Origin: Heterotrichella gracilis
Lineage: Eukaryota; Sar; Xanthophyceae; Tribonematales; Xanthonemataceae
Assembly (NCBI GenBank): GCA_032358255.1
Contig: JAULBX010015534.1
Span: 42,149-92,054 of the forward strand
DNA length: 49,906 nucleotides
Reading direction: 5' to 3'
Positions 1-49,906 of this stretch are shown in pieces (within the stretch, counting starts at the first letter, position 1; each line of letters starts with the position of its first letter). The position numbers and the translations under genes were made by a program. The notes under the pieces were generated by a model. It was given only the letters and a program-made list of their open reading frames with translations, did not search any database and was not told the origin of the DNA.

Positions 1-343
1 CACTCAACCCCTCCTCCCATACCCGCAGGCGGCCAGTATGTTCTCCTTGGCTCCGGCCATGCTGACGGTGTTTTCCGTGGCCTGGCAGCCAATGAGCTGA
101 AGGACAGCAACCAGGCTGCCCTGCTGGCGATGTTCAGCGATCAAACTCGTCGCCCCTTCCTTGCGAGACCCTCGAAACCCCTCTCTTCCAAGCCCAATTC
201 AACCCACTCAACCCCTCCTCCCATACCCGCAGGCGGCCAGTATGTTCTCCTTGGCTCCGGCCATGCTGACGGTGTTTTCCGGGGCCTGGCGGCCAATGAG
301 CTCAAAGACAGTGATCAGGCTGCCCTGCTGGTGATGTACAGCG
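1..343 (+). repeat. 204-bp tandem copy of a starch-synthase intron-exon junction
   Basis: Positions 1-139 (intron tail, gcag acceptor and about 110 nt of exon) repeat at 205-343 with a few substitutions. The shift is exactly 204 bp, or 68 codons, so both copies lie in one open frame. The upstream copy stops matching after the AGCGA at about 139 and runs into intron-like sequence without a donor. The downstream copy continues into the full exon and is taken as the used one. Confidence 0.9.
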
Positions 344-1082
344 AGAACCTGGCGCACCTCATCTACGCGGCGGCGGATATTGTGGTGGTGCCCAGCATGT
401 ATGAGCCATGCGGGCTGACTCAGATGATTGCGATGAGGTGAGGGGCTGGGGAGGTGGGCGTGCGCGTGTAGGGGGTGTGCGTGGCGCGTGGGCTGCGACT
501 TGTGGAGATGAGGCACAGATGTTGTCTGGAGGGGGCCATCGTATGACCCTCAATTAGCGTTTTGTGTGGCAGCTGGGTGGGGCATGAGTGAGCGGGTTAT
601 TTACCGCCACACAATAGAAACCGCTGATTACGGTATGCACATTATCATATGCCTGGCATGCTTCGCCCTGGCAGAACCTGCTTAAACCCTTACAATAACC
701 CCTTCTCTTGACACTTGTGATACGACACCATTTCCATGGCATGCATATAGCACCCGGCAAACCTCGTCCACATCTCAACAAACCCTACCCCAAACCCCGC
801 AGGTACGGCGCGGTGCCCCTAGTGCGCGCCACAGGGGGGCTAGCAGACACCGTGAAGGATGTGGACAACTACCAAGGGGAGGAAATCCCCAACGGGTTCA
901 CATTCGACGGGGTGGATGAGGGGTCCCTGGATGGCGCCCTCCAGCGGGCGCTCAAGGCGTACCGGGAGCGGCCCGAGTGGTGGCAGGAGCTGTCCATTCG
1001 CAACATGCAGATTGATGTGTCGTGGGAGAAGAGCGCAGCCAACTATATCGATCTGTACAACAGCATCAGTGTGACGTGGTGA
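1..1082 (+). CDS. Soluble starch synthase (GT5), C-terminal exons, partial
   Basis: This is the 3' end of a GT5 starch synthase, which moves glucose from ADP-glucose to growing alpha-1,4-glucan chains in the plastid. Two exons can be read: 233-437 and 803-1082 (stop at 1080-1082), joined at AG|gtgagg and gcag|G to give [17 protein letters not shown]. The fold's C-terminal half shows [10 protein letters not shown], a [23 protein letters not shown] block (the nucleotide-sugar binding EPCGLTQ motif) and an IPNGFTFDG to [13 protein letters not shown] tail. That tail is closest, from memory, to the SSIII/SSIV classes rather than SSI/SSII. The gene starts upstream of the window. Oddly, the start of exon 233-437 is repeated 204 bp upstream, at 1-139, in the same frame. 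The class within GT5 is less certain than the family. Confidence 0.93.
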
Positions 1083-2250: not shown

Positions 2251-3723
2251 TCAATGATTGTCGTTGCGGCTTCGCTTGCGGGTTGCCAAGACCTTGGCTT
2301 GGTGGTCTGCCAAGGCCTTGCAGGCAAAGCGCATGTTGGCATCCACTGGTATGTAGCGCGTAGATGCCACAATCCCTGGGTGGCTGAGGCTCACTACCGG
2401 GCACAAATTCTGCGAAGTGCTTGGGGAGAAGGTTAGAGGTAGGACCATACGACCTGGATATCCCTGGCGCACCAAGCAGAACCGATTTGCTGCATCCAAC
2501 ACAACCACAACTCTGCAGGGAATAGACCACGGCTTGTCGCACTGACCGAGGTCTACCTCCTTGCCCTTACTCCAAGTGCTCCCATTGCTGCATGCCATCC
2601 ATGCCCATTCTGCATGAGGAAGATAGCTGCCTGGTTGCTCTACTGCCTGTTGCAAGGCAACCCCCACACCAAAACCCCATTCCCTGTCATTTGCGCACTC
2701 GGTGGTCAAGGCGCCATCCCGGCTGGCAACAAACTTGACCTCCCAGGCGGTGATGCCAGCGCCCAAAGTACGAGTGCCTCTTGCCGAGCAGTGTGTGGCA
2801 GGCGGGCACAGCTTCAGCGCCTTCATGCCCGCAAGCTGAACCAGGGTGCCACTGGCACTGCAGACAACATCCTCCTCCTGACCATCACCCAAGCTGTCTG
2901 GAATGCCTGCCAGTGCCTGCAGCTTGTACACCCACAACAGCTGCAATTGGCTTATGAACCCACTTGCTTCCAGCTGCTCCGCCACCACCTGTGGCGGCAC
3001 TTGTGTGAAGTTTATCATCTTCCACATGGGGTCAGAAGTGCGAGCGAAGTCCTCAGCCAGTCTAGCATCCTTACTTGCCTCAATTGCAACCTTTGTCCTC
3101 TGCACCAGGGCCACCACCAGCTTCTGTTGGGACCACAGCAATCCCTCATGTGAGCGTTGCAGCAGCCAAACGATAGCCCGAAGGGTGAACCCTTCAAGGG
3201 TGAAGGTGTCGAATGAGTTGATTGCACGTAAGGCGTAGTCCTGCACCGGCTCCGCACCATGCTCCACTGCTGCTGACCGCACCTGGCCAGCTGTTGCTGG
3301 TGTGAGGGCCCTTGACACTGCCAGCAGGATTGCACGGGATAGGGCATCGATGCCATACTGTGACGCCAAGCAGTAGGCTTCCACAGCTGTGGCATTGGGC
3401 TCGATCCCAGAAACGTTGGCTGCATACAGCGAGTCAAGTACCAGCCTGAAAGCGCTGCTGGACGCCTCTGGCAGAGGTATCTCGCTCATGCCAGTTTCCC
3501 TCATGCCTCCAAACAGCAGGCGCTCAAAGTAGGGGGACCGTGCTGCTAGGAACGCCCTGTTGGCGTGCACCTTGACGCCGTCCTTGCACGTGAAGCAGAC
3601 GTCGGTGTAGGCATCTGAGCGGAGATTGTCCCGTACACTTGCAAGAACCTCACTTTGGAGCTCCTGCTCTGCCTGGGATAGCTGCTCTCTGAAAGGGGAA
3701 GTGGGCGCCTTAACAGAAGCCAC
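2251..3723 (-). CDS. BTB1: BTB-BACK protein with SPRY-like C terminus; AUG start missing
   Basis: A single open frame of about 490 codons. Residues about 25-130 are a BTB/POZ domain (DVCFTCKDGVKVHANRAFLAAR, then YFERLLFGGMRE). Residues about 135-275 look like a BACK helical region. The C-terminal 190 residues resemble SPRY/B30.2 (ITAWEVKFV, WGFGVGV, LCPVVSLSHPG), and the tail is basic. BTB-BACK proteins usually act as substrate adaptors of CUL3 ubiquitin ligases; that role here is inference. The place where paralogues have ATGGCTTC reads GTGGCTTC (3723-3721). An in-frame TGA lies 11 codons further upstream, and no ATG precedes the BTB domain. The copy may therefore start at an upstream exon (a GTGAGT donor-like site lies just upstream), use a non-AUG start, or be dead. 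A conserved splice acceptor ends at 3847. Closest relative in the window: adjacent BTB2. Confidence 0.8.
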   Translation of the reverse strand: MASVKAPTSPFREQLSQAEQELQSEVLASVRDNLRSDAYTDVCFTCKDGVKVHANRAFLAARSPYFERLLFGGMRETGMSEIPLPEASSSAFRLVLDSLYAANVSGIEPNATAVEAYCLASQYGIDALSRAILLAVSRALTPATAGQVRSAAVEHGAEPVQDYALRAINSFDTFTLEGFTLRAIVWLLQRSHEGLLWSQQKLVVALVQRTKVAIEASKDARLAEDFARTSDPMWKMINFTQVPPQVVAEQLEASGFISQLQLLWVYKLQALAGIPDSLGDGQEEDVVCSASGTLVQLAGMKALKLCPPATHCSARGTRTLGAGITAWEVKFVASRDGALTTECANDREWGFGVGVALQQAVEQPGSYLPHAEWAWMACSNGSTWSKGKEVDLGQCDKPWSIPCRVVVVLDAANRFCLVRQGYPGRMVLPLTFSPSTSQNLCPVVSLSHPGIVASTRYIPVDANMRFACKALADHQAKVLATRKRSRNDNH

Positions 3724-4614: not shown

Positions 4615-6085
4615 TCAGTCCTCGCGATTCCGCTTCCGGGCATTTGCAGCCGCCTGCTGCCTGCATAGCATGAGCATGTGTGCATCCACAGGTATGTAGC
4701 GCATGGATGCCACCATTCCTGGGTGGCTGAGGCTCACTACGGGGCACAAGCTGTTCCACTCTCCCGAGTAGGTTCCAACCAGACGGCGTCCATGTCCCTC
4801 TAGCAGATAGCATTTCCGCTGTGGCGCATCCCCCAGAGCAATGATTTTGCAGGGGGTGGGCCACGGATCGTCACGCTCACCCACCTCCTTGCCGTTACTC
4901 CAACTGCTCCCATCGCTGCACCACATACATGCCCATTTAGCAAGTGGAAGGTAGACGTCTGGTTGCCCTACCACCACATGGTGTTGTAGACTCACACCAA
5001 AACCCCAATCCTCGTCACTTGCATCCCAGTGGTCCCTGGCCCATTCCGGCTGCCAACAAACTTGACCTCCCAGGCAGTGATGCCATTGCCCAAGGTGCGA
5101 GTGCCCCTTGCAGAGCAGTGCTGGGCAGGCCGGCATAGCTTCAGCACATTTGCACCCGCATGCTGGACCAAGGAGCCACTGGCACAGCAGACCGCGTCCT
5201 CCCCAACGTCCTGACCTTCACCCCAGGAGGTGCACGGAATGCCTGCCAGCGCCTGTTGCCTGTACACGCGAAAAAAGACGCTCCTTGCTTGCGAGCCCAT
5301 TTGCTTCCAGCTGCTCCACCACCACCAGTGGCGCCACTTGCGTGAAATCAATCAGATCCCACAGGGGTCCCAGGAGGGTAATCATATTATGAGCAGCATT
5401 GCCAGCCTCCGCCGCGTCCTTGCTCCACTGCACCAGCGCAACCACCAGCTGCTGTTGAGACCACAGCACTCCCTCGTGTGCTCGCTGCAGCAGCCAAACA
5501 ACTGCTGAAAGGCTGAATCCCACAAAGGTGAAGGTGTCAAAGGAGTTGATTGCACGCAGCACGCAGTCCTGCACTGCCTCTGCACCATGCTCCACTGCTG
5601 CTGACAGCACCTGCCCAACTGTGGTTGGCGTGAGGGCTCTGGGAACTGCCAGCAGTATCGCGCGGGATAGAGCGTCGATGCCATATTGTGACGCCAAGCA
5701 ATAGGCTTCCACAGCTGCGGCATCAGGCTTGATGGCTGCGACGTTGGCCACGTAGAGGGTGTCCAGCACCAGCGTCAGGGAGCTGCTAGAGGCCTCTGGC
5801 AGGGGTATCTCGCTCATTCCAGACTCCCTCATGCCCCCAAACAACAGGTGCTCAAAGTAGGTGCACCGGGCAGCCAAAAACGCCCTATTGGCGTGCACCT
5901 TGGCGCCATCCTTGCACGTGAAGCAGACGTCGTTGTAGGCTGGTGAGCGGAAGTTGTCGCGCACAGTTACAAGGACCCTGTTGCTGGAGCTCCTGTTCGG
6001 CTTGGCATAGCTGCTCCCTGAAAGGGGAAGCAGGCACCTCCTCTGAAGCCTGGCCATCCCCAGAAGCACTGTCCACCTCATCCAT
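4615..6085 (-). pseudogene. BTB2: BTB-BACK-SPRY-like gene with three single-base frameshifts
   Basis: Closest to BTB1 and in tandem with it. The start ATG (6085-6083) opens MDEVDSASGDGQ, then a SPFREQLCQAEQELQ stretch shared with BTB1. Reading of the whole family pattern needs three frame changes. The first is an extra base in the CCC at about 5976-5978, before the BTB domain. The second is an extra base in the A6 run at 5271-5276, between BACK and the C-terminal region. The third is a missing base near 5024-5028, inside the SPRY-like region. Between the breaks the frames stay open and conserved (YNDVCFTCKDGAKVHANRAF; ITAWEVKFVG; EDWGFGVSLQHH; CPVVSLSHPGMVASMRY). That points to recent inactivation or to assembly errors, since two of the three breaks lie in homopolymers. 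The splice acceptor conserved in the family is at 6227-6226. Confidence 0.85.
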
Positions 6086-7324: not shown

Positions 7325-8788
7325 ATGGCTTCCTCAAACCCACCAGGACCTCCCTCACCCTCCCTGGTGCAAATCCAGCAGGGGCTCCAGAAATATATCC
7401 TGGCTGCGGTACGGGACAGCCTTCTCTCAGCCTCCAACAGCGACGTCTCCTTCATATGCAAGGATGGCGTCAAGGTGCCCGCCAACAGGGCGTTCCTGGC
7501 AGCACGGTGCCCCTACTTTGAGCGCCTGCTGTTTGGGGGCATGAGGGAGACTGGCATGAGCGAGATACCCCTGCCAGAGGCATCCAGCAGCGCTTTCAAG
7601 CTAGTGCTGGACTTGCTCTACACAGGGAATGTGGGCGGCATCAAGGCGGATAGCACTGCTGTGGAGGCACACTGCTTGGCGTCTCAGTACGGCGCTGACA
7701 CACTGTGCAGGGCGATTGAGCTGGCTATCACTCAGCTGGTGACACAAGCCACAGTTGGGGTCGTTTTGACAGCTGCTTTGGAGCGACAGGCAGAGACGCT
7801 GCAGAGCGTTGCACTACAAAGTGCCCAAACCATGGACAGCAGTGCCTTCTCCATCATTGGGTTCCCAATAGAGGTCATACAGTGGTTGCTGCAAGAGGAG
7901 CGTGCAATGAGCTTCCCTGTAACCCAGGAGCAGGTGGTGGTGCAGCTGGTACAGTGGGCAAAGGAAAGGTCTAGGACCAACCGTAAGCGCTCCCTCTGCG
8001 AGGATCCTACAAGTGAGCCACAATCAGCTATGGCGCAAGTGTTAGAGCCCCTGTGGGATCTGATAGACTTCACGCAAGTGCTGCCAAAGGTGGTGGAGGA
8101 GCAGCTGGAGGCAAGTGGGCTCGCAAGCAAGGAGCAGCTGCTGGGGGTGTACAAGCAGCAGGCGATGGTTATGGCGCTTGCTGTGGCTCCTGACAACCTT
8201 CTGGGGAACGGCGCGGTGCTTGGCAGCGGATCGTTGCTATCATCGCCAGGTTCAATCACACGGCATATGCTCCAGCAAGCGCCCTCTGCACACCACTGCT
8301 CAGCCAGGGCAGGGAGCGGCATCACAAGCGGGGTTCATGCCTGGGAGTGTGACTTCGCCCCTGGTCCTAGATCAGAGAGCATTGCTACCCCGCCCAATGC
8401 CCCCGCACAGCTGCTTAGCTTTGGTTATGTCTTTGATGACTCTTTCAGCATGGAGAGATATCTTCCTGGTGATGCTGAGGCTATCATGTTCTGCAGCGAT
8501 GGCACATTGTGGATTCGGGGCAAGGAGTGCAGAAGTCGCCTAGGCACCTGGTCGGCCCCCTGCAAGCTGGTGATTGTGGTGGACATGGACAGTGCAACTC
8601 ATAGGCTGTTTGTAGGGCGTGGTGAGAATGGCTCTCTAGTTTCGGAACTCATCAATCTGTCAAAGATCGTCTACCCTGCAGTCAGCTTGGGGTACCCTGG
8701 GGCTGCGGTGTCCATGCGGCGCATAGCTCTGGATGAAGCCATGCTCAAGCAGGTGGCGGACAAGAGCAAGGAACCAGTGCCAACCTGA
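7325..8788 (+). CDS. BTB3: intact BTB-BACK protein with SPRY-like C terminus
   Basis: An uninterrupted frame of 487 residues from ATG 7325 (MASSNPPGPPSP). The frame also extends upstream to the conserved splice acceptor at 7171, but without an ATG, and paralogues start at the same MASS position. The BTB domain is at about 25-130 (SDVSFICKDGVKVPANRAFLAAR, YFERLLFGGMRETGMSEIPLPEASSSAFKLVLDLLYTG). A BACK-like region follows at about 140-285, with a basic KRSL segment in its middle. The C-terminal part has SPRY-like landmarks (GVHAWECDF, LLSFGYVFD, LVIVVDMDS, VYPAVSLGYPGAAVSMRR). It is the only copy on the plus strand and has no intron in the coding part, unlike all non-BTB genes here. A CUL3-adaptor role is inferred from the family. 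Confidence 0.88.
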   Translation: MASSNPPGPPSPSLVQIQQGLQKYILAAVRDSLLSASNSDVSFICKDGVKVPANRAFLAARCPYFERLLFGGMRETGMSEIPLPEASSSAFKLVLDLLYTGNVGGIKADSTAVEAHCLASQYGADTLCRAIELAITQLVTQATVGVVLTAALERQAETLQSVALQSAQTMDSSAFSIIGFPIEVIQWLLQEERAMSFPVTQEQVVVQLVQWAKERSRTNRKRSLCEDPTSEPQSAMAQVLEPLWDLIDFTQVLPKVVEEQLEASGLASKEQLLGVYKQQAMVMALAVAPDNLLGNGAVLGSGSLLSSPGSITRHMLQQAPSAHHCSARAGSGITSGVHAWECDFAPGPRSESIATPPNAPAQLLSFGYVFDDSFSMERYLPGDAEAIMFCSDGTLWIRGKECRSRLGTWSAPCKLVIVVDMDSATHRLFVGRGENGSLVSELINLSKIVYPAVSLGYPGAAVSMRRIALDEAMLKQVADKSKEPVPT

Positions 8789-9779
8789 GGTCAGACTACA
8801 GTGGGTAGGCGGCATCTGTTATCATGTGGCACTGCATGGGATTGCAGAAGTGGTGAATAGAACATTGAATGTGACATGTGAATGGCCAGTCCATTATATC
8901 AGATTCTCGTTGACAACAATGTTTGGAGGTAGTGACGACCTGGCATCGGTGCACTGCAGGTGATTTTCTCGCTAGTGGCCGTATTGTCACCATTGGTTGG
9001 CAACCTTAAGTGCCAAGGAAGCCGACTCGATTATAAATGCCGCAGTGCCTGCATCTGCTTTGATTAAAGGCGCACAATTGCAGGCAAATTGCTAAACAAC
9101 CAGTGCTCTGCTGTTACAGTAGATCTATCGCATGTGTTGGAACTGGTATGCGATGCTCCATACATTTTTATTTCCTGTGTAACACTTCACAGCGCAATTG
9201 TCATAGTATGTATTACATACTGTAGTATATGTATCACAATTATTAACAAAAATATATTCTGTGAATATTTGTCAATGACATAAGAAAGGAAGAAAGAACC
9301 ACAATGCCCCACAGTGTGTCACACGGTGGCACACCACAAACCAGCAATGTTGACGAGCACAATTTGTGTTTGAAAAAGGCTGGGCATCAAGCAGTGGATG
9401 ACAATAACAAAGGCAAGACAAACTCTAAATACGTCCTAGCAACACCACAAGGCAGCGCCTTAAAGTCTCTTGCTCTAGCTTGTCGCAATGGTGCACAGGA
9501 GCAAAAATAGAAGCACACTTCTTGCCTGCTACATAGCAATTCACCTACACAGGACCGCGTTCATGTCCACCTCATAGTCTGAGCTGTTTTCAGGACGAGA
9601 CATATCATGGATAGGACAGGACATATCCATCTATGGACAGGCAGTGTTGGTACAAGAAATAAACCAGGCAGTGTATAGATAGGCTGTGGTAAATTGGCAT
9701 CACGCGTCCTACACACAACCCTGCTTTCTCAATCTGCTGCATGGGCAAACCCCGCTTCCTCCATTGAAACCCCCCTGCC
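8789..9779. other. Intergenic, BTB3 and HDDC2 3' flanks (convergent)
   Basis: No gene is seen. AT-rich stretches occur at about 9160-9270. A TGTAA string at about 9177 (plus) could end BTB3. The minus-strand equivalent (ttaca in the plus text, near 9113) could end the HDDC2 transcript. Confidence 0.5.
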
Positions 9780-17607: not shown

Positions 17608-19068
17608 CTAGCTGCTATGGCTGCTGGTTGCCGCTGCGGCAGGTGTCCTCCTCCCCTCCTTGACCTGCTTGATCATGCCTCCATCCACAGCATTGCGTCG
17701 CATGGACACCGCAGCCCCGGGATACCTCAAGCTGACTGCAGGGTGAATGATACGTCGCGGAAGAAAATGTCGCCGCTTGGATAGCACCACTGTCACCACA
17801 GCGTACAAAGAGCTCTCCAATGTCCAAGTTCGCCACCATCACCACTTTGCAAGGGGGTGACCAGCTGCCAAAGTGAACCCTAGATGACTGCCTGCTGCCA
17901 TACCACACTGCGCCATTGCTGCAGATCATGACCGTCCCAACAGCACCAGGAAGGAAGCTCTCCATGCTGACAGAATCTCTCCAACCTAATACCCAGCAGC
18001 TGGTTGTCTGCATCAGGCAAGGTACCCGCTCGGGCTGAGCCAAGCGTGAATACGTACTCCCAGGCATACCATCCCCTTGCCATGCCCCTCCTTGCAATGG
18101 CTGAGCAGTACTGTGCAGAGGGCGCTTGCTGCACCATGCAACCTTTGGCTCGCTTTGCTCCGCTGCCAAGCCCTGCACCCTTCCCCAGTAGATTGCCCGG
18201 ATCATTGTCATATGCCATAGCCATTGCTTGCTGCTTGTACACGCACTGCAGCTGCTCCTGGCTTGCAAACCCATTCGCTTCAAGCTGCTCCGCCACCACC
18301 TGTGGCTGCACTTGCGTGAAGTCTATCAGGTTCCACAGGGGTCCAGCAGCTGCGCCATAGCTGACTGGGGCCCGCATTCAGATGAGCCCCCAGGGATGTG
18401 GTCAGCGTGATCCTTCCCCCACTGAACCAACTGCGCCACCACCTGCTCCTGGGTCATGGGCAAGCTGTGTGCACGCTCCTCGTGCAGCAACCACTGCATA
18501 GCTCCCAGGGAAAACCCAGTGAAATTGATCACACTGCTGTGCATGGTTTTGATAGCTGTTAGCGCAATGGCCTGCAGCGGCTCTGCCTTGCGCTCCACTG
18601 CTGCCGTCAGGACATCCACAACTGTGGCTGGTGTCAAAAACTCTGCAATAGCCAGCTCAATTGCCCTGCACAGTGCGTCAGCGCCGTACTGTGCTGCCAA
18701 GCAGTGTGCCTCCACAGCAGTGCTGTTAGCCTCAATGCTGTCCACACCCCAGTGTACAGGGAGTCCAGCACCAGCTTGAAGGCGCTGCTGGATGCCTCTG
18801 GCAGGGGTATCTCACTCATGCCAGCCTCCCTCATGCCTCCAAACAGCAGGCGCTCAAAGTAGGGGCACCGTGCTGCCAGAAACGCCCTGTTGGCGTGCAC
18901 CTTGGCGCCATCCTTGCACGTGAAGCAGACGTCGTCATAGGATGGTGAGCGGAGGTTGTCCCGAACTGCAGCCAGTATCTCTTGCTGGAGCTCCTGGACA
19001 GGTGTGGACCTGTCATAACTTACACGCTGTCGCTTTGCTGGGGAGGGAGCTGGGGCTGAAGAAGCCAA
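17608..19068 (-). pseudogene. BTB4: BTB-BACK-SPRY-like pseudogene, at least four frameshifts and lost start
   Basis: Conserved family blocks follow one another in changing frames. The BTB domain comes first (YDDVCFTCKDGAKVHANRAF, MSEIPLPEASSSAFKLVL). A break at about 18745 leads to the BACK region (TAVEAHCLAAQYGADALCRAIELAIAEF), and a break in the G4 run at 18338-18341 to LWNLIDFTQVQPQVVAEQLEA. A break near 17986 leads to SVSMESFLPGAVGTVMICSNG, and a break near 17745 to the terminal HPAVSLRYPGAAVSMRR. The position of the paralogues' start ATG reads TTG (19068-19066, TTGGCTTCTTCA). The conserved 5' splice acceptor is still present (exon from 19226). With five fragments and no start, this copy is taken as dead. 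Closest in sequence to BTB5 and BTB6. Confidence 0.9.
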
Positions 19069-33895: not shown

Positions 33896-33927
<32 letters not shown>

Positions 33928-36883: not shown

Positions 36884-39800
36884 ATGGCAGAAGGCAAGAA
36901 ACCTCGAAAGAAGACAAAAAGCGGCAGCCCTACGGACTTCTGGGACGGCGTCGGCGGCTGGAAGCCGGTGGATGTGGGCGAAGAGTTCCTAGTTGGCGCC
37001 ACAGAGGGCGGCTTTTTCGGGCTCGAAGTGTTGGACGACCCTGTTGTGCTTGGTGGCTTGCAATTGGAGGGACCTATAGGCGGGCTAGTCAAGCCAGACG
37101 CACCCATATCGGCTGCTGGGGCTGCGGCTGATGGTAAGGGAAAGGGGACGAAGACCAAGAAGGAGAAAAAGGACGGGAAGCGGAAGCGAGGGGATGGGGA
37201 GGTGCCTGCTGGTGGCAAGGGGGAGGCGCCTGCTGGTGGGGAGGGGGATGAGGGCGATGTTGAGCAGCTGAAAGCTCGGCTGGCAAAGCTCGAGGCGGAG
37301 AACCAGCGCCTGAAGAAGAAGCAGAAGAGCGACAAGCAGGACGCAAAAAAGAAGGAGAAAGCTGCCGCCAAGAAGGGGAAAGGGGAAGCAGGCAAAGGAG
37401 GCTCAGCCGGCGCGGCCGCCCCAGGTGGCAAGAAGTCAGGCAAGGCAGCAAACAGCAAAGTACCAGCTGGACAGCAGGCAGGGGAGAAACCAGTTCCAGT
37501 GGCAGATGTGAGCGCTTGGCTGCCGTTTGAGCTTGACCCAGCCATCACGGGGGCGCTGAGTACCCTAGGGTTTGCCGAGCCAACCCCCATCCAGCGGGAG
37601 TGCATGGCGCCTGCCATCAAGGGCAGGCAGGACATCATCGGGGCGGCGCAAACGGTACTCTAAACCCTAGCACACACCCTACATGTGCTCATCTGTGGTG
37701 CAATAACTAGAAGGTCATGGGCATTGTGTATCCGTCATCATTTTTTTGAATAACATAGGGGTACGCGTTGTTAACTGCATCACCGCTCATTGCTGAGTAG
37801 TCACTGTGCGTCAACGCCTATCACATGCCTCATCATGGGACAATGGGACATGGACCTCCCATCACAGTTAGGGTCAGAAGATGCACCACTGTGTGCAAGA
37901 GTGTGCATGTTGCTTTGCATTCCATGAGCCTCGTGCCTTCCATTTCTGACAGAGCGCTTGACCCGCTTGACCCGTAGGGTTCCGGCAAAACCCTAGCCTT
38001 CGGCCTGCCCATCCTGCAGCATCTGCTGGCTGAGCGCCACATGGCGGGGGAGGGTCAAGGGGAGAAAGGCGGGAAGCTGCGGGCTCTCATCCTGGCGCCC
38101 ACGAGGTACATGAACACCCCATGTACCCTTAAACTCCAGATCCTTTCCTGTAGTATTTAGATCTTCCCCCCTGGCTCCCCCATCTCCTCGCATAATTGCG
38201 TTTGCCACAGCTTGCAATCACGCAGCCGGAAGTCAAATCAAACCTAAAGCTGACCCAAAACCTACTTCTGACCCTAATCAGACCCTAACCCATATCCTAT
38301 CGTCCGCAGGGAGCTTGCCATGCAGGTGTGCAGCCACCTGTCTGCCGTGGCCCAGCCCTGCGGCATATGGGTGGTGCCAATCGTGGGCGGAATCTCCCCT
38401 CAGAAGCAGCAGCGGCTACTGGCAAAGTGCCCCCAGGTGGTGGTAGCCACACCAGGCAGAGTGTGGGCGCTGATGAGGGACGAGGGTGAGTCTGAGTTTT
38501 TATATGATAAAAATTATGTCTGTGTGGGGCGGTGGGGATGTGTGTGGGGGGTAAATTGGCAGTGTGTTGTCATTTCCCCAGAAGTTGCACCACCTGCTGG
38601 CCAAGTGCCGGCAAGTGGTGGTGGCCACGCCGGGCAGAGTGTGGGCGCTCATGAGGGACGAGGGTGAGTGGGGTGTGCAGTGGGTGTGGGTTGTGGGGTT
38701 AGGGGCGGGGTTTAAGTATGTCGTCGTGTGCGTGTGGTTCATGTGTGCACGTACACAGTTTATGTTTCCTGGTCGTCTTCTTTGGCCTTTGAAGATGTGC
38801 TGTGCCACGCAGGTGATCGCCACTTGTCGGATCTGTCCCAGCTTGACTTCTTTGTACTGGATGAAGCCGACAGGATGGTGCAGCAGGGGCACTTCCAGGT
38901 GGGTGGGGTGGGGATGTTGCAGGCTGTTTGCAGCAACTTGCAGCATGGGGCACTTCTTGTTTGTTTTGGTGCTGTTGGTTTGAGTGGTTGTGTATATGGT
39001 AGCAATAGTTTAGTAAAATTGTATTTGTCTTCCGTGGCCTATGAGTTTGTTATAACATATTTTCAGCTTTCCTAACATTGTAAAGCCCTCATCAAACCCC
39101 TATTTGTGGTAGCATTTCCAAACCCTTAATTCCACTCTGTCTCAGGAGCTCACCTCCATTGTGGAGCTAGTGCGCATGCACATGCTCCCACAGCCACTCC
39201 ACCAGCACCAGCCCGACGCCCCAACACAGGCTGAGGAGGGTGCCGAGGAGGGTGCAGAAGAGGGTGCTGGGCCACCGGCTGGTGCTGAGGCGCCCCAGCA
39301 CCCCACCGGTGGGGGGAAGAGGGGCAAGCAGGTGCTTGGCAAGGGGAGGCTGATGCAGACCTTTGTGTTTTCCGCAACCCTAACGCTCCCCGATGGGTTG
39401 AAAAAGAGGGTCCGCCAGGGTACCGGGGGTGCCTCGGGGGGTGCCACGCTGGAGCATTTGATGGAGAAAATACCCTTCCGGGGTAAACCCAGGATCGTGG
39501 ACCTCACCTCGGAGCGCAAGGTGGCGGACGCGGTGAGGAAACCCTATGAAACCCTAGAAAATTTGAGAAAACCCCAATGTTGGGCCTGCTCAGTAGGGGT
39601 TCAGTGCCAGAAGAGCGGTCAAGCTTGCACAGACTGCGTCATTTGGTTCTTCTTGGTACGCATGATACCATATCATTGAGTCTTTTGTAAAACTATAAGA
39701 TTCTCGGTAACCTCTTGACAAAACCCTTGACAATTCCTCCCCAGGTCCAAGAATCCTGGCTCCAGTGCCCCGAGGAGGAGCGAGACGCCCTGCTCTACTA

Positions 39801-42800
39801 CCTCCTATCGCGCCACCCTGGCCGCACCATCGTGTTTGCCAACGCCATCTCATCCATCAGGCGCTTAGGAGCCCTCCTTAAGGGTTTGGGCCTCAACTGC
39901 CAGCCGCTGCACGCATCCATGCAGCAGCGGCAGCGTCTGGCGGCACTGGATCGGTTCCGCAAGGGGGAGGATGCGGTGCTGGTGGCGAGTGATGTTGCGG
40001 CCAGGGGCCTGGATGTGAAGGTGGGTGGTGGGCGGGTTTGGGGGAGGTGGTGGGGTGGATGTGAAGGTAGAGGGCGGTTGTGGTGGGGGATGTGTGACAG
40101 TACCCTAGTCGCAATCCACATATGCAGGATGTGAGTTGCCTGATCCATACAAACCCCACACAATCACGACCCCTTATTCCAGCGCACAAATCCCTCATAA
40201 AACCCAACCAAAACCCTATCGTGCAGGGTGTCCGGTGCGTGATCCACTACCAGCTGCCCGCCAATGTGGACATAAACCCTACACAAACCCCAAATAAAGC
40301 CCTAACCAAAAACCCTGTCGTGCAGGGTGTGCGGTGCGTGATCCACTACCAGCTGCCTGCCAGTGTGGACACCTACGTGCACCGCAGTGGGCGCACAGGC
40401 AGGTGGGGTGCAGGTGAGGGGCTGAACGTGGCGCTGGTCAGCCCCAAGGACAGCACGAGATTCCTGGCGCTGATGAGGGCAATGCAGAGGTGCGAGGGGT
40501 GGGATGGGTTGTTTTTCTTTGGGGGGCCGCAATCGCTATACACCAAAGAACCCTGGAAAGCCACAAAACCCTAGAAGCCTACTTATTCTACAACCCTTAA
40601 ATTTGGGAATGCCGTACCCAATGTGGCCATGGTTAACCATCAAAACCTAGAATTATCATAGGTACTAGATAGGTCCACTTGTAACATACTCCGCCTGTAT
40701 GAGTCCTTTGTGCACCCCAACCCTGATCCTACCCCACTCCTGCCCGCAACCAACCCCAACAGGGGCAGCGGCCCCTGTAACTCAGCCTCCACATACCCTA
40801 ACCCTTACCCTAACCACGCAGGGACATGCCCCCCGAGTTCCCTGTAGACACCTCCCTCCTGCCCGAGGCGCGCGAGCGTGTGCGCCTGGCTGTGCGGTGC
40901 GACGACCTGTCCCGCCGCCATGCCAAGGCCAAGGCCAATAGGAGCTGGGCGCTGCGCCAGGCAGAGGAGCTGGAGCTGGACCTCAGCGAGTCTGACATAG
41001 AGCAGGTGGGGATTGGGTGGGGTGTGGGTAGGTTTTGGGTGGGGTTTTAGGAGTTGGTGTGCCAGGCAGAGGAGCTGGAGCTGGACCTCAGCGAGTCCGA
41101 CATAGAGCAGGTGTGGCGAGGTCTGGGGTAGGGTTTTTGGTAGGGTTTTGATAGGGTCAGGAAATTGGTGGTGCAGGCAGAGGCTCAGCGAATGTGACAT
41201 AGGCCAGGTGGGGAGGGGTTTGGGTTAGGGTTTCGGGAGGGTTAGGAGTTAGGATAGGGCTTCAGTGCCTGGTGTGGCAGGCTGCGGAGTTGGAGCTGGA
41301 GCGAGTCAGACAAAGGAGCTGGTGGGGTTTTGGGGAAGGATTTTACGGTACCTATTGGAATTGTATTACTAACTTCTTATCTCTGCATTTTTGATACTTT
41401 GTTATTGGTGGACGCAAAGATAGAGAATAAAATACTGAAGTGCGTTGTTTTTGGTGCCCATATCCTATTTTGCGTGTGCCCGGCATGATGGTGTGCACGT
41501 TTTGTGCATATCCTCCCTTGACGCTCAACTCCCTCCTCTCCCCGGCCCCAGATGAACAGCAAGAAGCACCGCAAGGGGAGGAAGGGTTTGGTGAAGGAGG
41601 GGCGAGGGGAGGACGAGGAGGTGGTGCTGGCACAGCTGCAGCAACAGCTGGCGCACAGGCTGGCGCAGCCGCTGCAGGTGGGAGGAAACCCTAACAAAAC
41701 CCCTAATGAAACCCTCTCGCGGGCTTTTTAGGTGCGTGGTCACGGGTGCAGCTGCTGCAGATGGGAAAACCCTTGACAAAACCCCTAATATAACCCTAGG
41801 GCTTCTTGCATGTGTGCGCCGCTGCATGTAAGGGTTTCTTCCTGCCCAAGCACACCCGAAGAAACCCTGCAAGGCACCCTGGCTCATCCCCTTCATTCGC
41901 AAATCATATACCCCCTTTCCTCCCCATTTACAGGCTCGCTACAGCCCCAAGTTCTTCACGGGCGGCCAGGGTGCAGGGGGGGGTAAGGCAGCTGTGGCGG
42001 GCGGGTCAGGGGAGGAAATCGTTGGTGGCGAGGCCATGAACCAGGTGGGCATTCCTCTGCGGTATTCTGTTATTGCACTTGGGATTGAGATTACCGTACG
42101 TTATTGGCACTTTTTGGCATAAACGGTGGGTATTGCTCTTGCACGAGGTATTGGAGGCATTCCCGAGGTTGGATTTGCTGCGCCCGAAATGTGCGCATGG
42201 TTCATCCAAATAGCACATAGCATTTATTATATAATTCATAACACTCTGAGATATGTCTTGTATTTTCCCCTTTGCAGGTTGTGGCTCGTGCCCAGCACAG
42301 GGCAACCAGCCAGGCTGAAGCCAAGGCAGGGGTGGAAAAGAAGAAAGTGAAAATGGTAAGGAAGCGGCGCTGCTGTGGGGCTCGCTGGGGGGTTGCTGGG
42401 TACAGTACCCCTTGGCTGCACCACATTGTGGTGTCCATGTGGTTGCCATATGGCACTGCTGTGGTTCCGTCTTGTGCCTGACCAAGGTTAAGGTGGTGGT
42501 TGTGGCTGATTGTGGTACAATTCAATTGCACTGTGCACCTGTTAAGTGCCCTGCTCGGCGCCGCATGTGCAAGGGTGACAGCTAATCTGGCTGTATTGCT
42601 GCAACGCAAGTAGCTAACTAAGTAGATGTGACACAATGTATTATGTGCGCGCAACAATTTACAACTCGACTGGTTTCCACTGCAGGCCAAGAAGCAGAAG
42701 CTCCACAAGGCACAGGCCGCAGCGCTGCACAAGGCCATGGCGGCAGGGGGGAGCAAGGGCGCCAAGAGCAAGGGGAGGGGCAGGCTAGTGGTCATACCCG

Positions 42801-43982: not shown

Positions 43983-46395
43983 TCACGCCACCGCTGCCTG
44001 CACCCCTGCCTGTACCCTCCCTTCCACCTCGGCAGCCACCTCCCCTGGTTCCTCATCTTCAGCCACCTTGAAGAAGGTGTACGACAGCGTCAGGTTGTTC
44101 ACCCCCTTGAGGCGCTCATCGCGCACAAACTCGGGGTCGATGTAGAAGAACACGGGCATGTCGATTTTTTCTCCGGGGCGCAGCTTCTGCTCCTGCATCC
44201 CAGGGACAAGCAGCAGCTCAGCGCTGGGATTCAAGGGAACAGATTGATTGATGACTCAGCACAGATTAGAGACATGGGGCTTGAAACCCAAATAAATTTT
44301 CAAGCCCCGTGCCCTAATCTGTACTGTATTGCCAACTTTCTGGCCCTGTGCAGGTGTCTGCAGATGCCAGGTGCACCACTTTTGGTTTTAGCTAATGTGA
44401 GCAACTTCCTAGGGTCTGGAGTCCCTTCCCTCCCTTCTGTTCCTTACCCATCACGCTGTTGATGAATGAGCAGCGTGTTCTTCCATCAAATCCCCAGACC
44501 CGCTCGACCGCCCCCCCCCACTTCCACACACCACCCCCACATGTGATGATAATGGATCGTATTTGAAATTCCTCCTGCCACACCCACCTCAAAGCAGAAG
44601 CACTGGATTTTGTTAAAATACACCCCCGCCTGCTGTGGCGCCACGTTGTACGTCGATACCCCTGTGATGGCGCTGTCGCTCAGGTTGTGCGCCACATAAA
44701 ACACAAGCGTGGACTGGCCTGGCTTCACCTGGTGGGGAAAACAATACCGGTAGAGGCGTGTGTTAATCTACATGCGGGTCGATTTACAATGTGCAGAACC
44801 TGATATCAAAGTTGAATCTTGATTTGACTTGAACTGGTCTGGCTTCAATCGGCAGGGTAAATAATTGGGGGGGTGTTAAGCACATGTGACCCTAACCTAG
44901 GTTTACCCCCCCTCACCTTGACGCTCCGCTGCAGGGGCACAAACTTCCAGGGCATGCCGTCCGACACGTCAGCATTGAAAGTGACGGTTATCTCCCGCGC
45001 TGCCAGCTGGCGGTTGAGCTCCACGTCATCCATGGACTCACGCAACCGGTCCTCCACTTTCTGCAAGGGTTGTAGGGTTTGGTTAGGATTCTGAACCTGG
45101 AGGGCCCGACGTTGATCAATGCATGCAATGTCCGTTGGGGAGAGCATGGTTTAGGATACAGGGTATGAGCAATTCCTGGTAGGGTTCATACATACATGGC
45201 GCAGAAATGCGTTTAGGTGCAGGTGGCAAATGGTACAGAAACATATTTGTATTTGGATGCAGGTCAGATGGCAGATAACCTACTATGTTTCAATCGCTGA
45301 TGTACCCACCTGGCCTTGTTGTACCGTTCCTCCAAAACCAGTTGCCTGCGCCACAAAACAGACATGCTTTTAACGGGGTACATGTTTAAAACAGGGAAAG
45401 GATTTCATTGCCAGTGCAACTGGGTGCAATGCCATTTGAATGCACGGGGTTTGCAATGCCATTGAAAACGCATTGACAAAGGTGCAAGGCCACTACAATA
45501 CCCCTGCCACATCGAGCTTAAGTACACGTATCAGTATGCTTGCTGCAGCCCAAGTCCCTGCGTTAGGGTTATTCCTGGCACTGCACCGCACCTGACAGAA
45601 CATCCGGTACAGCGGCACTGAGGCGTATGTCAGGCCAACCATGCTGACCACGATGGCAACCTGCAGACACAGCCCACGTGGGTTTCACAGTCCTGCCGTA
45701 GTTTGCAGCCAGACCCACTCGCTTTCCCTTCCAACTGTTGACTAGTGCGCCCAACTGCGCAGCTCAGGACGTGCGCGCATGGGGACACTAGTGAGGACAC
45801 ATATATACCTGCATAGCATATACGTACCACAGCACCATATGCTCATCAACACTACTCATGCGCCTAAACACTTTGCCGTGTGCACGCGCCTGCTCAAACT
45901 GATACAGCATGGAAGCTATTGGTGCACACAGTATCGGAGTACCACACACACCACAGTACAAGACCCCTACTCACAGTACCACAGTTTAAACACCTGGCAC
46001 CGCCACCCATGTACCTATATAGGTTTGTGCACGTGGTACGTGGTACATTCGCAGTACCACGTGCACATACGCACCATATACATCGCCTGCTCCCCGCTCT
46101 TTTTCTGTTGCTCCTTAATCATGCGCTGCTGCACCGCCCGCTGCGGGCCGGGGCCGGACGCAAACCCTCGTAGGGTTTGCAGGGCTTGAGAGCACGTGCC
46201 GCCCCTGGGTTGTAGGTGCCAACACCGGCTGTGGCTGTGGAACATGTGCCGGAGTGCGGGCTGGTGGTGCAGCAGGATGGGGGGGAGCGATGGCATGGCT
46301 GATGGCAGGCAGGAGGGTAGCTGCTGAGGGGTAAAGGGCTGAGGGAACGGGTGGTGCAGGTGCAGGAGAGCCCGCAACCTGCTTAATCGTGTCAT
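43983..46395 (-). CDS. COX11: Cytochrome c oxidase copper chaperone COX11
   Basis: Six exons (46395-46075, 45660-45592, 45345-45310, 45060-44917, 44728-44588, 44192-43983), all in phase 0, give 306 residues. The N terminus is a long His/Pro/Leu-rich mitochondrial presequence with an RGFAS cleavage-like site near 75-80. One transmembrane segment (about 106-122, [16 protein letters not shown]) leads to [15 protein letters not shown]. The copper-binding pair is CFC (Cys233, Cys235) in [11 protein letters not shown], and Cys129 is in [21 protein letters not shown] and [12 protein letters not shown] are classic family blocks. COX11 sits in the inner membrane and delivers copper to the CuB site of COX1. 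ATG 46395 is chosen because the longer frame upstream begins with GTG. The C-terminal Ala/Val/Glu tail is extra. The gene diverges from THOC3. Confidence 0.95.
44261..44322. repeat. Imperfect 26-bp-arm hairpin in COX11 intron 5
   Basis: ACAGATTAGAGACATGGGGC (44261 onward) pairs with the CCCCGTGCCCTAATCTGT end (to 44322). About three mismatches interrupt 26 bp, around an 11-nt loop rich in A. The fold resembles a foldback remnant or a small-RNA precursor. Confidence 0.8.
44708..44870 (-). repeat. Likely decayed tandem copy of COX11 exon 5 start
   Basis: The start of exon 5 and its acceptor (plus text ACTGGCCTGGCTTCA from 44713) recur 120 bp away as ACTGGTCTGGCTTCA from 44833. A following GGxAGGGxAAAxAAT-like stretch also aligns to the intron side. 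The copy lies upstream in the gene's direction, inside intron 4, with the acceptor degraded. Similarity spans about 40 bp. Confidence 0.6.
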
Positions 46396-46884: not shown

Positions 46885-49800
46885 ATGACGGTTGAAACGC
46901 AAGTGCCCTTCGAGCAGTACAAAATAAAGGAGGTCGTTGCACACAAGAGACGGGTACGAGCCTGGCAGTAAACTAACCTCTGCACTTGCGTCCGTGAACA
47001 CGATACCTTGTTGGATACGTGCCGCAAATGGGAAGGCTGCACCTAAGTTGCGAGTATCCCGAACAGGACACGTTGCCTGGAGGCTGACTTGCAGCTTGGT
47101 CCATGCTCTTGGACCCAACCTCCATTGACCCAGCCCACACAAGACCCTGCACGCCCTGTGCATGGCCTGTGCAGTTCTGAGGTATCCCCTTCTCCCTTGC
47201 AGATAGTAACACTGGGATGGAATTGCGATGGCTCGAAGATGGCCACAGGTGAGGCGCATGCACAGCGCATGCACAGGGCATAGGTGCACACCTTATTTGG
47301 TTCGCGGTGCTTGCCTCCGTCACAGTCCCAACGCGCCATGCACTACCTGCTGTGTCGGCGTAAAGGGTAACCACCCTATCCTCTTGCATTCCACCATGCA
47401 TCATAGGGTGCTGCAATACATCCCCCCTCCCACCCCCCACCCCCCACCCACACACACCCTCCTGGGGGTCCCGCCAGCATACTCCCGTCATCCGCCTCTC
47501 AGTGTCCACAACAGTCCCATCCATCAAACTCTCATCACCCACCACCCATTGACGACACCCCCCCTTTCCTTGCCCCTCCCCCACGCAATAGGCAGCTTGG
47601 ACCGCATCATCAAGGTGTGGAGCCTCAACTCCCTGCTGCGGTCCAAGGAGCAGCCCGAGACTGAGCTGACGGGGCACTCTGCGGAGCTTCAATGCGTGCG
47701 GTGGCACCCCGATAGGCCAGACAGGCTGGCAAGCGCAGCCGTGGAACGCAACATACGGTGGGCTGAAAAACCCTAGAAAACCCTAGAAATCTTTAGAAAC
47801 CCTAGGAACACTTGCAGGGGTTGTGTGGGGTATGGGCTACTGGTGCAACTGGCCAGGACTGCTGTGGGGTGCAGTATGCTGTGTGTGAGCATACCTTGAA
47901 ACCCATGCACAGGGTTTCGGTTTGAGGTACTGGGGACAAAGGCATCCTCGCCAACCCTACACCTTTGCAAGCTGTGTCCCCACACGCTGCTCCACCGCCC
48001 TCACACAAGCTCTACACCCCAAATCCCAAATACCTCTACCCTAATTTCCACAACCCTACACCCTGCCGGATGTGGGACAGCGGGCGGCGCGGCTCAACCG
48101 CCTGCATCCCCACGCGCAGTGACAGCCTCATCATGGAGCTTGTGTGGAGTGCAAACGGGTCATCATCTTTGCACCCACACAAACCCTACATCCTACACAA
48201 AGCAGGCTATTGGAACAGCTTGTTGCTTGGCTCAATACACTGCTGCAACCCCTGACCCTAACCCCCCTTGCAGGCTGTGGGACAGCCGGCGGCGCGGCTC
48301 CACCGCCTCCATCCCCGCCCCCAGCGACAGCCCCATCATGGAGCTGGTGTGGAGCGCAGATGGGGCCACCCTGGCCGCCATCACCAAGAACCGCGAGGTG
48401 GCGCTCATTGACGTGCGCAAGGAGAAGGTGGCCAAGGTGCACCGGCTACAAGGGGAGGTGCGTGGGTAATACTGACAATTTGCTAGAACCGCACGGTGGC
48501 AATGCAGTTACCACGGTGAGATGGATAATGGTTATCGAGCGGGAGGCACGTGGGTGCTGGCAGGGAATGCAAAACACAATGCACAATGTGATAGATGGCC
48601 TGATTTCTTGTTGGGCAAGAGGATTGCTTCCACTTTGCTGCTTGTATCAGGGTGTCAAATGCAGCCCAGCTGGGGCGTAAAATGATGGCTCGCATTTTTG
48701 CCCTGAGTTCTACCTTCTTTGCGTGTGACACCACCTGATGGTCCCCAATATTTTAGAGGGATGGGATCTTACATCATCAAACCTCCCCTTGCTTTCCTGC
48801 CCATTTTTCCCTCTCCAATCTGCACCATGCAGCAATTCCCTCCCCGTTTGAACCCCGCCACCCCTTTCACCCCCTCTGCAGGTGTATGCTGCTGCCTGGT
48901 CCAAGGACATGAAGGCAATGTACGTGGCCACTGGAGCAGGGGAGGTGGAGGTGCGTGGGGGTGAAGGGTGGGGGGTGCGGGGTGGGGTGGGGCAGGACCA
49001 GGCGCCACTCGCTGATTGGTCAGCAACGATCAGCTAGTGTCAGTGTATGCGTCATCTGTAGTAGATAATGATCACCACTGGTAGATCCACAATCATGACG
49101 AATTGTCATCTCCTATTGTCCATGATTTAATATCAGAGATATGTTCTCCAATAATTGGTGTACTTAGCAGTAAGGACATGGAGATGGGTGGGGTTTGTAT
49201 CGGTGAATGTGGTATATGTGATGGTTTTGTCAATGATGATCGCCGCTAGTGCTACCCCTCCCACCACCCACCCCTCCAACACCCCCCTCCCAGGTGCTCC
49301 GCTACCCCTCGATGGAGCTTGCCAACACCCTCAAGGGCCACACCTCAGCCGCATACTGCCTGGCCATGGACCCCAAGCAGCGCTACCTGGCCTCGGGGGG
49401 CGAGGACGCCACGGTAGCGATATTCGACCTGGACACAATGCTGTGCAAGCATGTGCTCACCTACCCCGACCACGAGGTGGACATGCTGGGGTTCAGCTAC
49501 GACAGCCGCTACCTAGCGGTGGCTGCTGTTGGGGAGCTGAGCGTGAACATTGTGGAGGTGGAGACAGGTAGGGCAAGCTTCTATTTGAACCCTAAACCCT
49601 AGCCGCAGCGGTGTTTGACCTGGGCACGATGCTGTGCTAGCACGTGCTCCACACGGTGCGGAGGCACCTAATTGAGCCCTAAACCCTATTTAGTGTCCCC
49701 GCACGCGGTTGCCATCCCGCACCCCACTTCTTCGGTTTCTGGGGACGCGGTTGAACCCCCCACCTCCTTCATCCATGCAGGCCACATCGTCCACTGCTTC

Positions 49801-49906
49801 ACCCTTAGCCCCCCACTGCCTCCATCCCTGCACACACCCCAACCCTACCTGCGCACATCCCCTCACATCCCACCATCTCCCTGTCTCCCTCGCTTCCCCT
49901 CTCCCC
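46885..49906 (+). CDS. THOC3: THO complex subunit 3 (THOC3/TEX1), WD40 protein, 3' end cut off
   Basis: Exons 46885-46953, 47203-47248, 47592-47757, 48274-48457, 48882-48950 and 49294-49567 join in frame; a seventh may start at 49781. The product starts MTVETQVPFEQYKIKEV and then shows WD40 repeats: KRRIVTLGWNCDGSKMATGSLDRIIKVWS, GHSAELQCVRWHPDRPDRLASAA to NIRLWDS, SPIMELVWSADGATLAAITKNREVALIDV, GHTSAAYCLAMDPKQRYLASGGEDATVAIFDL, and EVDMLGFSYDSRYLAVAA to VEVETG. Order and wording match THOC3/TEX1, the WD40 propeller of the THO/TREX complex that couples transcription to mRNA export in the nucleus. The C-terminal blade is missing. The sequence after 49781 (HIVHCFT) soon stops resembling the family and lacks a clear donor, so the next exon is uncertain. 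Two exon-junction copies lie in its introns. Confidence 0.88.
48065..48379 (+). repeat. Tandem copy of THOC3 exon 4 start (pseudo-exon)
   Basis: About 105 nt of exon 4 (from 48274: LWDS, GSTASIP, SDSPIMELVWSADG) recur 205 bp upstream, at about 48067-48171 (MWDS, GSTACIP, SDSLIMELVWSANG). In the upstream copy the acceptor tgcagG has become tgccgG, so its 3' splice site is lost, and no donor follows the match. Confidence 0.92.
49412..49652 (+). repeat. Decayed copy of part of THOC3 exon 6
   Basis: The exon segment around TTCGACCTGGACACAATGCTG (from 49423) recurs 191 bp downstream as TTTGACCTGGGCACGATGCTG (from 49614), followed by TGCTAGCACGTGCTC. The copy has an in-frame TAG in place of AAG, so it is a dead fragment in the following intron. 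Confidence 0.88.

Follow-up and report, generated by a model that had tools for sequence, protein, structure and literature searches.

Eight direct local sequence pairs at E≤1e-4 are present in the window, by which we mean the whole 49,906-nucleotide stretch of DNA analyzed, including partial exon copies in DDX24, THOC3 and a gene that presumably encodes a starch synthase (Table 1). In a Pfam comparison, the starch-synthase exon gave a weak match to Glycos_transf_1 (E 0.0018, below the curated cut-off), and we otherwise take its identity to be as read from the sequence in the initial annotation and by us; homologs of the DDX24 gene bear the names DDX24/MAK5. A separate Pfam comparison covered 29 of 58 listed open reading frames.

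Table 1. Members of the local copy pairs in the window
Feature	Positions	Strand	Details
Starch-synthase exon-start copy, truncated	1..140	+	28 nt intron with acceptor within the window and 112 nt exon; 94% to 205-344, spacing 204
Starch-synthase real acceptor and exon start	205..344	+	Exon from 233; reading frame continues
Intron-only pair	14081-14126/14153-14198	+	46 nt each, 91%, spacing 72; just 5′ of apparent acceptor
DDX24 exon 3, 3′ part with donor GTGAGT (source)	38398..38491	+	DEAD domain E 6.5e-7
Copy of DDX24 exon 3 end	38576..38669	+	84%, spacing 178
Copy of DDX24 acceptor and 46 nt exon	40185..40272	+	89%, spacing 97; then telomere-like TAAACCCTA join
Real DDX24 acceptor and exon start	40282..40371	+	Exon from 40326; Helicase_C E 1.5e-6
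DDX24 array	40939..41344	+	Real exon end, donor at 41006; three more copies near 41058, 41177, 41279
DDX24 exon end with donor and intron start, and copy	41662-41715/41745-41797	+	84%, spacing 83
Copy of THOC3 acceptor and exon start	48061..48159	+	85% to 48266-48364, spacing 205; acceptor dead, GCCG instead of GCAG
Real THOC3 acceptor and exon start	48266..48364	+	Exon from 48274; Beta-prop_THOC3 E 1.3e-8
Source inside THOC3 exon	49416..49458	+	Beta-prop_THOC3 E 1.9e-25
Telomere-like AACCCTAAACCCTA tract, then stop-containing copy 49607-49649	49585..49649	+	84%, spacing 191; in-frame TAG by eye

The DDX24 array comprises, by eye, four copies, two of them decayed, at shifts of 109 (73% identity), 202 and 320 bp; the copies are increasingly decayed, and the DNA between them is G-rich with some telomere-like units. 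The initial annotation had placed copies 99–254 bp from their originals, and the measured distances are instead 72–205 bp, or 320 bp up to the fourth DDX24 copy. Its stop-containing and acceptor-dead THOC3 copies are both present; its DDX24 exon 7 copy corresponds only to a 34-nt family at 74% identity, absent from the BLAST pairs, and the copy suspected at COX11 has no counterpart, with no pair at E≤0.01 across 44,500–46,300. Several pairs do span a splice site, which had been described as the usual case, but the source at 49416 lies within an exon and the pair at 14081 is wholly intronic.

Direct local duplications across the genome

The local duplication is genuine and genome-wide. Across 27 sampled stretches (269,896 bases), 87 direct pairs and one inverted pair were found within 600 bp at E≤1e-6, as against none in the shuffle control (one dinucleotide shuffle per stretch). 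The algal set of 23 stretches (255,896 bases), from which L003 (GC 0.36) and L021 (GC 0.37) were left out as non-algal by judgement and L002 and L008 were also omitted, contains 76 non-redundant direct local duplications, i.e., one per 3.4 kb, vs. three inverted local pairs. These counts support, across the genome, the proposal that local copying in direct orientation recurs, making introns longer and leaving pseudo-exons to decay. That the process is ongoing, as was also proposed, is not established: the copies of the 76 pairs differ by 3–31%, with none below 2% and one at 2–4%, though the assembly could collapse identical copies. A spacer of at least 10 bp separates the copies in 58 of the 76 events and is shorter than 10 bp in the other 18; several events resemble plain tandem arrays.

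Specificity for exon junctions was not seen, exonic copies being found in 39 of the 76 events vs. 714 of 1520 random pairs matched in length and spacing (score ≥0.2), on a crude hexamer coding score that separates sense from antisense poorly and whose table was trained on long ORFs including those of the non-algal L021. Clustering at exon ends would probably be expected in any case, because insertions within exons would be purged and a constrained copy would stay recognizable. Overlap of neighboring exons in protein-HMM matches, which occurred on C24, C46, C54, C93 and C402, was dropped as a copy signal, since the overlaps examined, those of the kinesin genes on two of these contigs (C54, C402), proved to be alignment overrun into introns.

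Spacing of the copies and content of the spacers

The start-to-start distance is bimodal, with classes at about 107 and about 193 bp, and exceeds 250 bp in only two of the 76 events. A fit to the 74 events of up to 260 bp gives two components, at 103 and 193 bp (BIC 767.6 vs. 791.5 for a single component; Silverman test on the same events, p 0.016), and an independent gap-free scan places its top peak at 100–130, its second at 160–220 and a trough at 130–160 bp. Copy and spacer lengths each vary, yet their sum is constant: it falls within 97–117 or 180–210 bp, windows picked post hoc from these data, in 36 of 56 events, vs. 16.1±3.3 under permutation, with 11 and 8 stretches contributing to the two peaks. 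A hidden middle copy behind the class of about 193 bp was rejected, such a copy reaching p<0.05 in just four of the 27 events at spacings of 160–260 bp (in six of which the spacer was too short for testing); three of these four candidates lie at spacings of 219–244 bp, and the remaining one, L013:6990, matches over a short length.

Two further features of the geometry were observed. Spacing modulo 3 is uneven (19, 35 and 20 for 0, 1 and 2), and base composition at the boundaries (56 events, 64 positions, not strand-resolved) deviates most for C two bases 5′ of the left copy (p 0.0002).

Degenerate TTTAGGG-like DNA is enriched about 20-fold in the spacers, at 107 telomere-like bases per kb, vs. 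46 in the copies, 15.8 in the flanks and 5.3 elsewhere. Such bases occur in 31 of the 76 events (12.0±2.9 under random placement), leaving 45 events without any, among them 20 of the 27 events of the 160–250 bp class. TTTAGGG is the alga's own telomere unit: (TTTAGGG)5 stands at contig starts (e.g., C70, C140, C609 and C770) that are probably chromosome ends, exact (TTTAGGG)2 occurs 5,629 times, overlapping matches included, vs. 5 for the reversed unit, and the interior tracts are built of this same repeat. Directly repeated flanks border 25 of 68 interstitial telomere tracts, not all of them independent as some share one array, vs. 61 of 1020 control points (6%), and inverted flanks border one of the 68. 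AAACCCTA, which occurs 47,061 times on both strands of 68.5 Mb, i.e., 687 per Mb, clusters at the duplications: of its 159 sampled occurrences, 70 lie no more than 150 bp from one, vs. an expected 32.7.

The orientation of 40 tracts is not the one predicted by extension of the adjoining 3′ end: G tracts are nearer the left copy in 11 cases and the right in nine (two ties), C tracts in 11 and six (one tie), and we therefore reject telomerase extending the adjacent 3′ end, for which a pattern of G-rich tracts by the left copy and C-rich tracts by the right would be expected. The tracts also show no special closeness to the insertion point. Recombination between flanking telomere tracts is unlikely, since the flanks are far poorer in telomere-like DNA than the spacers.

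Beyond the telomere units, the spacers have little in common. No common family, and no set of many similar elements at different loci, was found among 45 spacers; nine have counterparts elsewhere in the sample, the listed matches being 18–38 bp long, and these are due, judging by coordinates and reading, to telomere units in eight cases, while the ninth is due to a simple repeat of the CCACC type. One spacer end (L024:6652-6716) is part of a dispersed repeat with four other places at 81%, and two other genome queries matched themselves alone. Of 43 events tested against their outer flanks, the spacer resembles the right flank at z≥3 in five and the left in two, with mean z of 1.03 and 0.68, respectively, vs. 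0.30 for a control stretch; some of the spacers reaching z≥3 are, by eye, full of telomere units. Of the 13 pairs with an identity of at least 88%, 12 have a spacer whose likeness to either flank stays below z=3, and such pairs therefore do not look like plain tandem units. A full-length duplicated unit is found in some arrays (L013:702, 106 bp; L024:7805, 114 bp; L005:3064, 213 bp) and not in most spaced pairs.

Proposed repair scars and competing origins

We put at about even the chance that the copies were left behind by local DNA repair of the staggered-break or fork type, recurring throughout the genome and often with telomeric filler. Such an event would start where two offset nicks make a staggered break or where a fork collapses, whereupon repair would re-synthesize 30–140 bp of the neighboring sequence and join the ends, converting L-X-R into L-X-filler-X-R, with an insert (copy plus filler) of either about 107 or about 193 bp. 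The filler would often consist of the alga's telomere units, as if telomerase or CST-type processing had acted on the broken ends. Copies of exon ends would persist because the outer splice site, still intact, would serve for splicing and the inner copy would be skipped and then decay, and repeated events would yield arrays and a longer intron. Against this repair model stand the tract orientation, the 45 telomere-free events, the 18 spacers below 10 bp, the arrays that look plainly tandem and the slightly raised spacer-flank similarity, which is as decayed tandem units would show; nor is the fixed total length of copy and filler something that fill-in of staggered ends would predict.

That constancy of the start-to-start distance, rather than of copy or spacer length, is directly accounted for if pre-existing intron tracts (telomere-like, G-quadruplex-prone or other) stall synthesis and the nascent strand switches template to re-copy from 107 or 193 bp back. 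The spacer would then be original DNA and the offset alone fixed, with the geometry of nucleosomes or of Okazaki fragments as a possible cause. The near absence of inverted copies and the independence of tract position from orientation also favor template switching, but it leaves the telomere-unit density of the spacers unaccounted for, unless the units were placed earlier, and it sits poorly with tracts that are not specially near the insertion point and with the telomere-free majority of the larger spacing class; we regard it as possible, though doubtful. Ordinary tandem duplication of 60–215 bp units by slippage or unequal exchange, with the intronic part decayed and the exonic part preserved by selection on one copy, would explain the full-length arrays of like unit size and the mean spacer-flank similarity slightly above control. 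It is nevertheless unlikely as the general origin, given the spacers unlike both flanks in nearly all of the least diverged pairs, the few events with z≥3 and the telomere-filled spacers.

The genic insertions of nucleosome-like size and the one spacer end in a dispersed repeat would suit an introner-like mobile element that duplicates its target on insertion, but the spacers share no family, their matches elsewhere are short telomere or simple repeats, the two further queries found themselves alone and "target duplications" varying over 30–140 bp are unlike those of transposons (we know of none that makes them), so we think such an element very improbable. Equally improbable is a function of the copies as duplicated exons of the mutually exclusive or cassette type: an acceptor, a donor and an open frame do survive in some, the DDX24 exon 3 copy being the best-looking, but this would form a frame-shifting pseudo-exon of 82 nt (CCCCAG...GTGAGT), the other window copies are, as read from the sequence, truncated, stop-containing or acceptor-dead, and one pair is purely intronic. 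None of the window copies reproduces an entire exon that is open, compatible in phase and flanked by both splice sites, and the suggestion that the copies offer raw material for new exons is thus unsupported. Although the assembly has 903 contigs and includes bacterial-like DNA, an assembly artefact is extremely improbable in view of the divergence between copies, several of which keep to the frame in which conserved genes are read, and the absence of events in the two AT-rich 10-kb stretches set aside as non-algal (L003 and L021).

Relation to known systems and implications

Tandem exon duplications, mammalian "doublets" and paired-nick tandem duplications in plants are short local direct duplications, as are those described here; work by Schiml in 2016 and Vaughn in 2014 is reportedly associated with duplications of this kind. 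To our knowledge, neither telomere filler nor classes of 107 and 193 bp have been described for any of the three.

The initial view that no described system fits was overstated, as small tandem duplications at staggered breaks (PMC8355091) and telomere-repeat insertions with flank duplication (PMC7215372) are both known. Interstitial telomeric sequences inserted at double-strand breaks (Nergadze 2007, PMC2246262; human/horse study, PMC7215372) are likewise described as short intrachromosomal tracts built from the repeat of the species' own telomeres, some with direct flank duplication, which the horse study ascribes to staggered breaks. Flank duplication alone is given for three of 66 horse loci (plus two in combination), six of 130 rodent and four of 25 primate loci (PMC2246262, PMC7215372), vs. 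25 of the 68 tracts in this alga, where repeated flanks are defined by similarity rather than by an empty site; the passages of these papers on such insertions report no fixed offset like the one seen here. Fill-in by CST-guided Pol alpha-primase, the machinery of telomere C-strand fill-in, is described as generating small tandem duplications at breaks with complementary 3′ overhangs, which are similarly local, direct and tens of bp long (PMC8355091). As presented in that account, however, the overhang is duplicated in tandem, whereas here most copies are split by an unrelated or telomeric spacer with copy plus spacer constant, and direct adjacency is not what we find in the 58 events with at least 10 bp between copies. 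Plant telo boxes (PMC3022908) resemble our case as scattered single telomere units of a green-lineage genome, and their authors also propose telomerase action on free 3′ ends; however, they are concentrated in 5′ UTRs and tabulated genome-wide at 155 per Mb in Arabidopsis and 81 per Mb in rice, vs. the 687 per Mb on both strands, clustered at duplications, seen here (the strand basis of the plant counts may differ). Introners (PMC9860276) also add intron sequence to genes, in algae too, with a reported nucleosome-linker bias, but the spacers here lack a common family. The ingredients are thus known, while the density, the fixed offsets and the telomere link look new.

Tentatively, these features may reflect a distinct, quantized form of local copying, in which 30–140 bp would be re-copied during repair or replication at either of two offsets, about 107 and 193 bp, that chromatin might determine. 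This copying would be coupled to telomere-unit addition at breaks within the chromosome, and through thousands of scars it could be a principal builder of introns in this alga. Extrapolation from one event per 3.4 kb gives a number of scars of order 10,000 or higher. Intron growth and the fate of broken ends inside genes have mostly been inferred from rare polymorphisms; here, repair scars of varied ages, at two offsets and with telomere-unit filler, seem to number in the thousands within one compact genome. If so, models of overhang fill-in, telomerase capture and template switching would become separable across a few strains, and the supply of intron sequence would become directly countable.

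Local direct copies in the window and across the assembly

The initial annotation described recurrent forward copies of exon-intron junctions beside unrelated genes, and self-BLAST of the window (49,906 bases of contig C157, in an assembly of 68.5 Mb in 903 contigs) recovers eight direct pairs at E ≤ 1e-4 and at most 600 bp apart, located in starch synthase, at four places in DDX24, at two in THOC3 and within an intron. Read by eye, the DDX24 exon-end array and both degenerate THOC3 copies are as annotated; the supposed exon 7 copy of DDX24 reduces to a 34-nt likeness at 74%, and self-comparison of the window at E ≤ 0.01 yields no COX11 copy. The DDX24 protein has its closest matches in green algae, with Myrmecia (52%) and Trebouxia (56%) as top hits. 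Related stretches of ~1.4 kb, of which the table gives example pairs, also recur in the window and are likely to be members of a gene family or copies of a dispersed repeat.

Positions of the copies and associated features
Feature	Position	Description
Intron-only pair	window 14081	both copies intronic
DDX24 array	window 40939	exon end four times, decay rising copy to copy
THOC3 copy	window 48061	acceptor gone
THOC3 copy	window 49607	in-frame stop
~1.4 kb stretches	window 2331-27534	both strands, about 70-84% identical
~1.4 kb family pair	window 2331-3721 / 4674-6050	
~1.4 kb family pair	window 17663-19009 / 26124-27476	
~1.4 kb family pair	window 7325-8794 / 26084-27520	inverted
Amidase intron	L011:3915-4534 (C9)	~620 bp
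PHD/SNF2-type gene	L013:8138-9872 (C20)	four duplication events in successive parts; PHD exon array of three copies at 94%
Dispersed repeat at spacer end	L024:6652-6724 (C300)	81% at four other places (C313, C28, C183, C862); runs 8 bases into copy

The wider sample comprised C157 upstream of the window and one fixed position on 18 other contigs, then five more stretches, with two 3-kb pieces around kinesin genes joining later; of the first 24 stretches, L002 and L008 did not enter the analysis. At E ≤ 1e-6, the 27 stretches (22 fetched plus the window as five pieces; 269,896 bases) contain 91 direct pairs, of which 87 lie no more than 600 bp apart and none falls in the 601-1200 bp range, and a single inverted pair within 600 bp; one dinucleotide shuffle per stretch gives neither direct nor inverted pairs. 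At E ≤ 1e-4, with overlaps removed, there are 76 non-redundant direct events and three inverted pairs. Two AT-rich, non-algal-looking stretches (L003 on contig C1 and L021 on C100; GC 0.36-0.37) hold no events; with these excluded, the 76 events come from 255,896 bp (16/23 stretches positive), and stretches not picked for any gene carry 67 events in 200,000 bp (14/20 positive). The assembly seems to be mixed DNA, because these two stretches are AT-rich and that of C1 is bacterial-like (ORF coverage 0.86).

Pfam was tested on 29 of the 58 ORFs overlapping copies, and 12 matched a family at E ≤ 0.001 (a single stretch passing alone), six of them reaching the curated cut-off, although the copied piece and the match may lie apart in the same ORF. 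These families are p25-alpha, CAF1B, pyruvate kinase (two), amidase (two), PHD, SNF2, serine carboxypeptidase, ribosomal L21, adaptin and heme oxygenase, and the copies therefore strike unrelated housekeeping genes. No exon preference emerged with a coding score of weak discrimination (39/76 events vs 714/1520 random pairs at ≥0.2); the prominence of copies at exon ends would follow from selection and constraint on one copy.

Anatomy and spacing of the events

The typical young event has the form X-spacer-X, with a spacer unlike either outer flank: among pairs of at least 88% identity, spacer-to-flank z is below 3 on both sides in 12/13, and across 43 tested events the mean z is 1.03 on the right and 0.68 on the left (control 0.30). 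In the amidase intron, the upstream exon end recurs twice and the downstream exon start three times besides the real ones, with degenerate TTTAGGG between copies and hardly any other sequence (by eye). The dispersed repeat in L024 is possibly captured filler.

Two features, a two-class spacing and telomere units, are absent from the initial annotation. For the start-to-start spacing of the 74 events at ≤260 bp, a model with two components (103 and 193 bp) fits best (BIC 767.6, vs 791.5 for one and 772.6 for three), and one mode is rejected (p 0.016). The short class has a median of 107 bp (33 events at 85-125) and the long class of 193 bp (24 at 165-220), with six events in the trough at 126-164. 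Spacing modulo 3 is uneven (19, 35 and 20 for 0, 1 and 2). A hidden middle copy was rejected as the cause of the long class, except for three events at 219-244 bp. Where the spacer measures 10 bp or more (56 events), copy and spacer lengths (both median 64) vary widely, but their sum falls within 97-117 or 180-210 bp, windows picked post hoc, in 36/56 (16.1±3.3 with spacers permuted), the peaks drawing on 11 and 8 stretches, respectively. A separate gap-free scan, leaving out telomere units, found 125 direct segments at 25-1200 bp, and 10 inverted ones by a seeded count; its profile is similar to that of the BLAST set, peaking at 100-130, dipping at 130-160 and rising again at 160-220, with 17 direct segments at ≥250 bp and 20 at 25-70 bp, distances mostly missing from the BLAST set.

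Telomere units and the origin of the copies

We take TTTAGGG to be the alga's own telomere repeat because runs of five exact units begin several contigs. Bases resembling two such units reach 107 per kb in spacers, 46 in copies, 15.8 in flanks and 5.3 elsewhere, and mark 31/76 events (12.0±2.9 under random placement within the same stretches), with a single orientation of the listed tract bases in each; they occur in 18/34 events at 85-135 bp vs 7/27 at 160-250 bp (Fisher p 0.04). Conversely, 25/68 interstitial tracts, several sharing one array and hence not all independent, are flanked by direct repeats at a local score of ≥40, vs 61/1020 control points; inverted flank repeats occur at 1/68 vs 2/1020. 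Exact double units number 5,629 vs 5 for the reversed motif (overlapping matches counted). The roughly 47,000 AAACCCTA units in the genome (47,061 vs 2,771 reversed; 687 per Mb, 17x reversed) are unusual, duplications aside; PMC3022908 tabulates telomere-unit densities of 155 per Mb for Arabidopsis and 81 for rice.

We give an even chance to an origin in staggered breaks, in which fill-in together with filler would generate the X-spacer-X anatomy. Staggered-break repair with fill-in and filler is described for a minority of mammalian interstitial telomeric insertions (PMC7215372, PMC2246262), a type that the algal copies fit; they also resemble the small tandem duplications which CST-guided Pol alpha-primase makes at 3′ overhangs (PMC8355091). 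The simplest form of break repair is opposed by tract orientation, which is not what simple elongation of the neighbouring 3′ end would predict, and by the copy-plus-filler sum, which it leaves unfixed. Template switching at a set distance accounts better for the offsets but leaves the telomeric filler unexplained, and we regard it as rather improbable.

Pair divergence is below 2% in 0/76 and 2-4% in one, the fullest two-point bin being 14-16% (14 pairs). Either past activity was higher or identical copies have collapsed in the assembly, so the process may or may not be ongoing, as initially annotated. If the rate is unusual, the argument lies in the two spacing peaks and the association with telomere units, not in a comparison with other algae. 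The ingredients are known; as spaced duplications, fixed offsets and telomeric filler in introns were not found together in the open-access literature searched (most subscription papers lay outside its scope), their combination and density look new.
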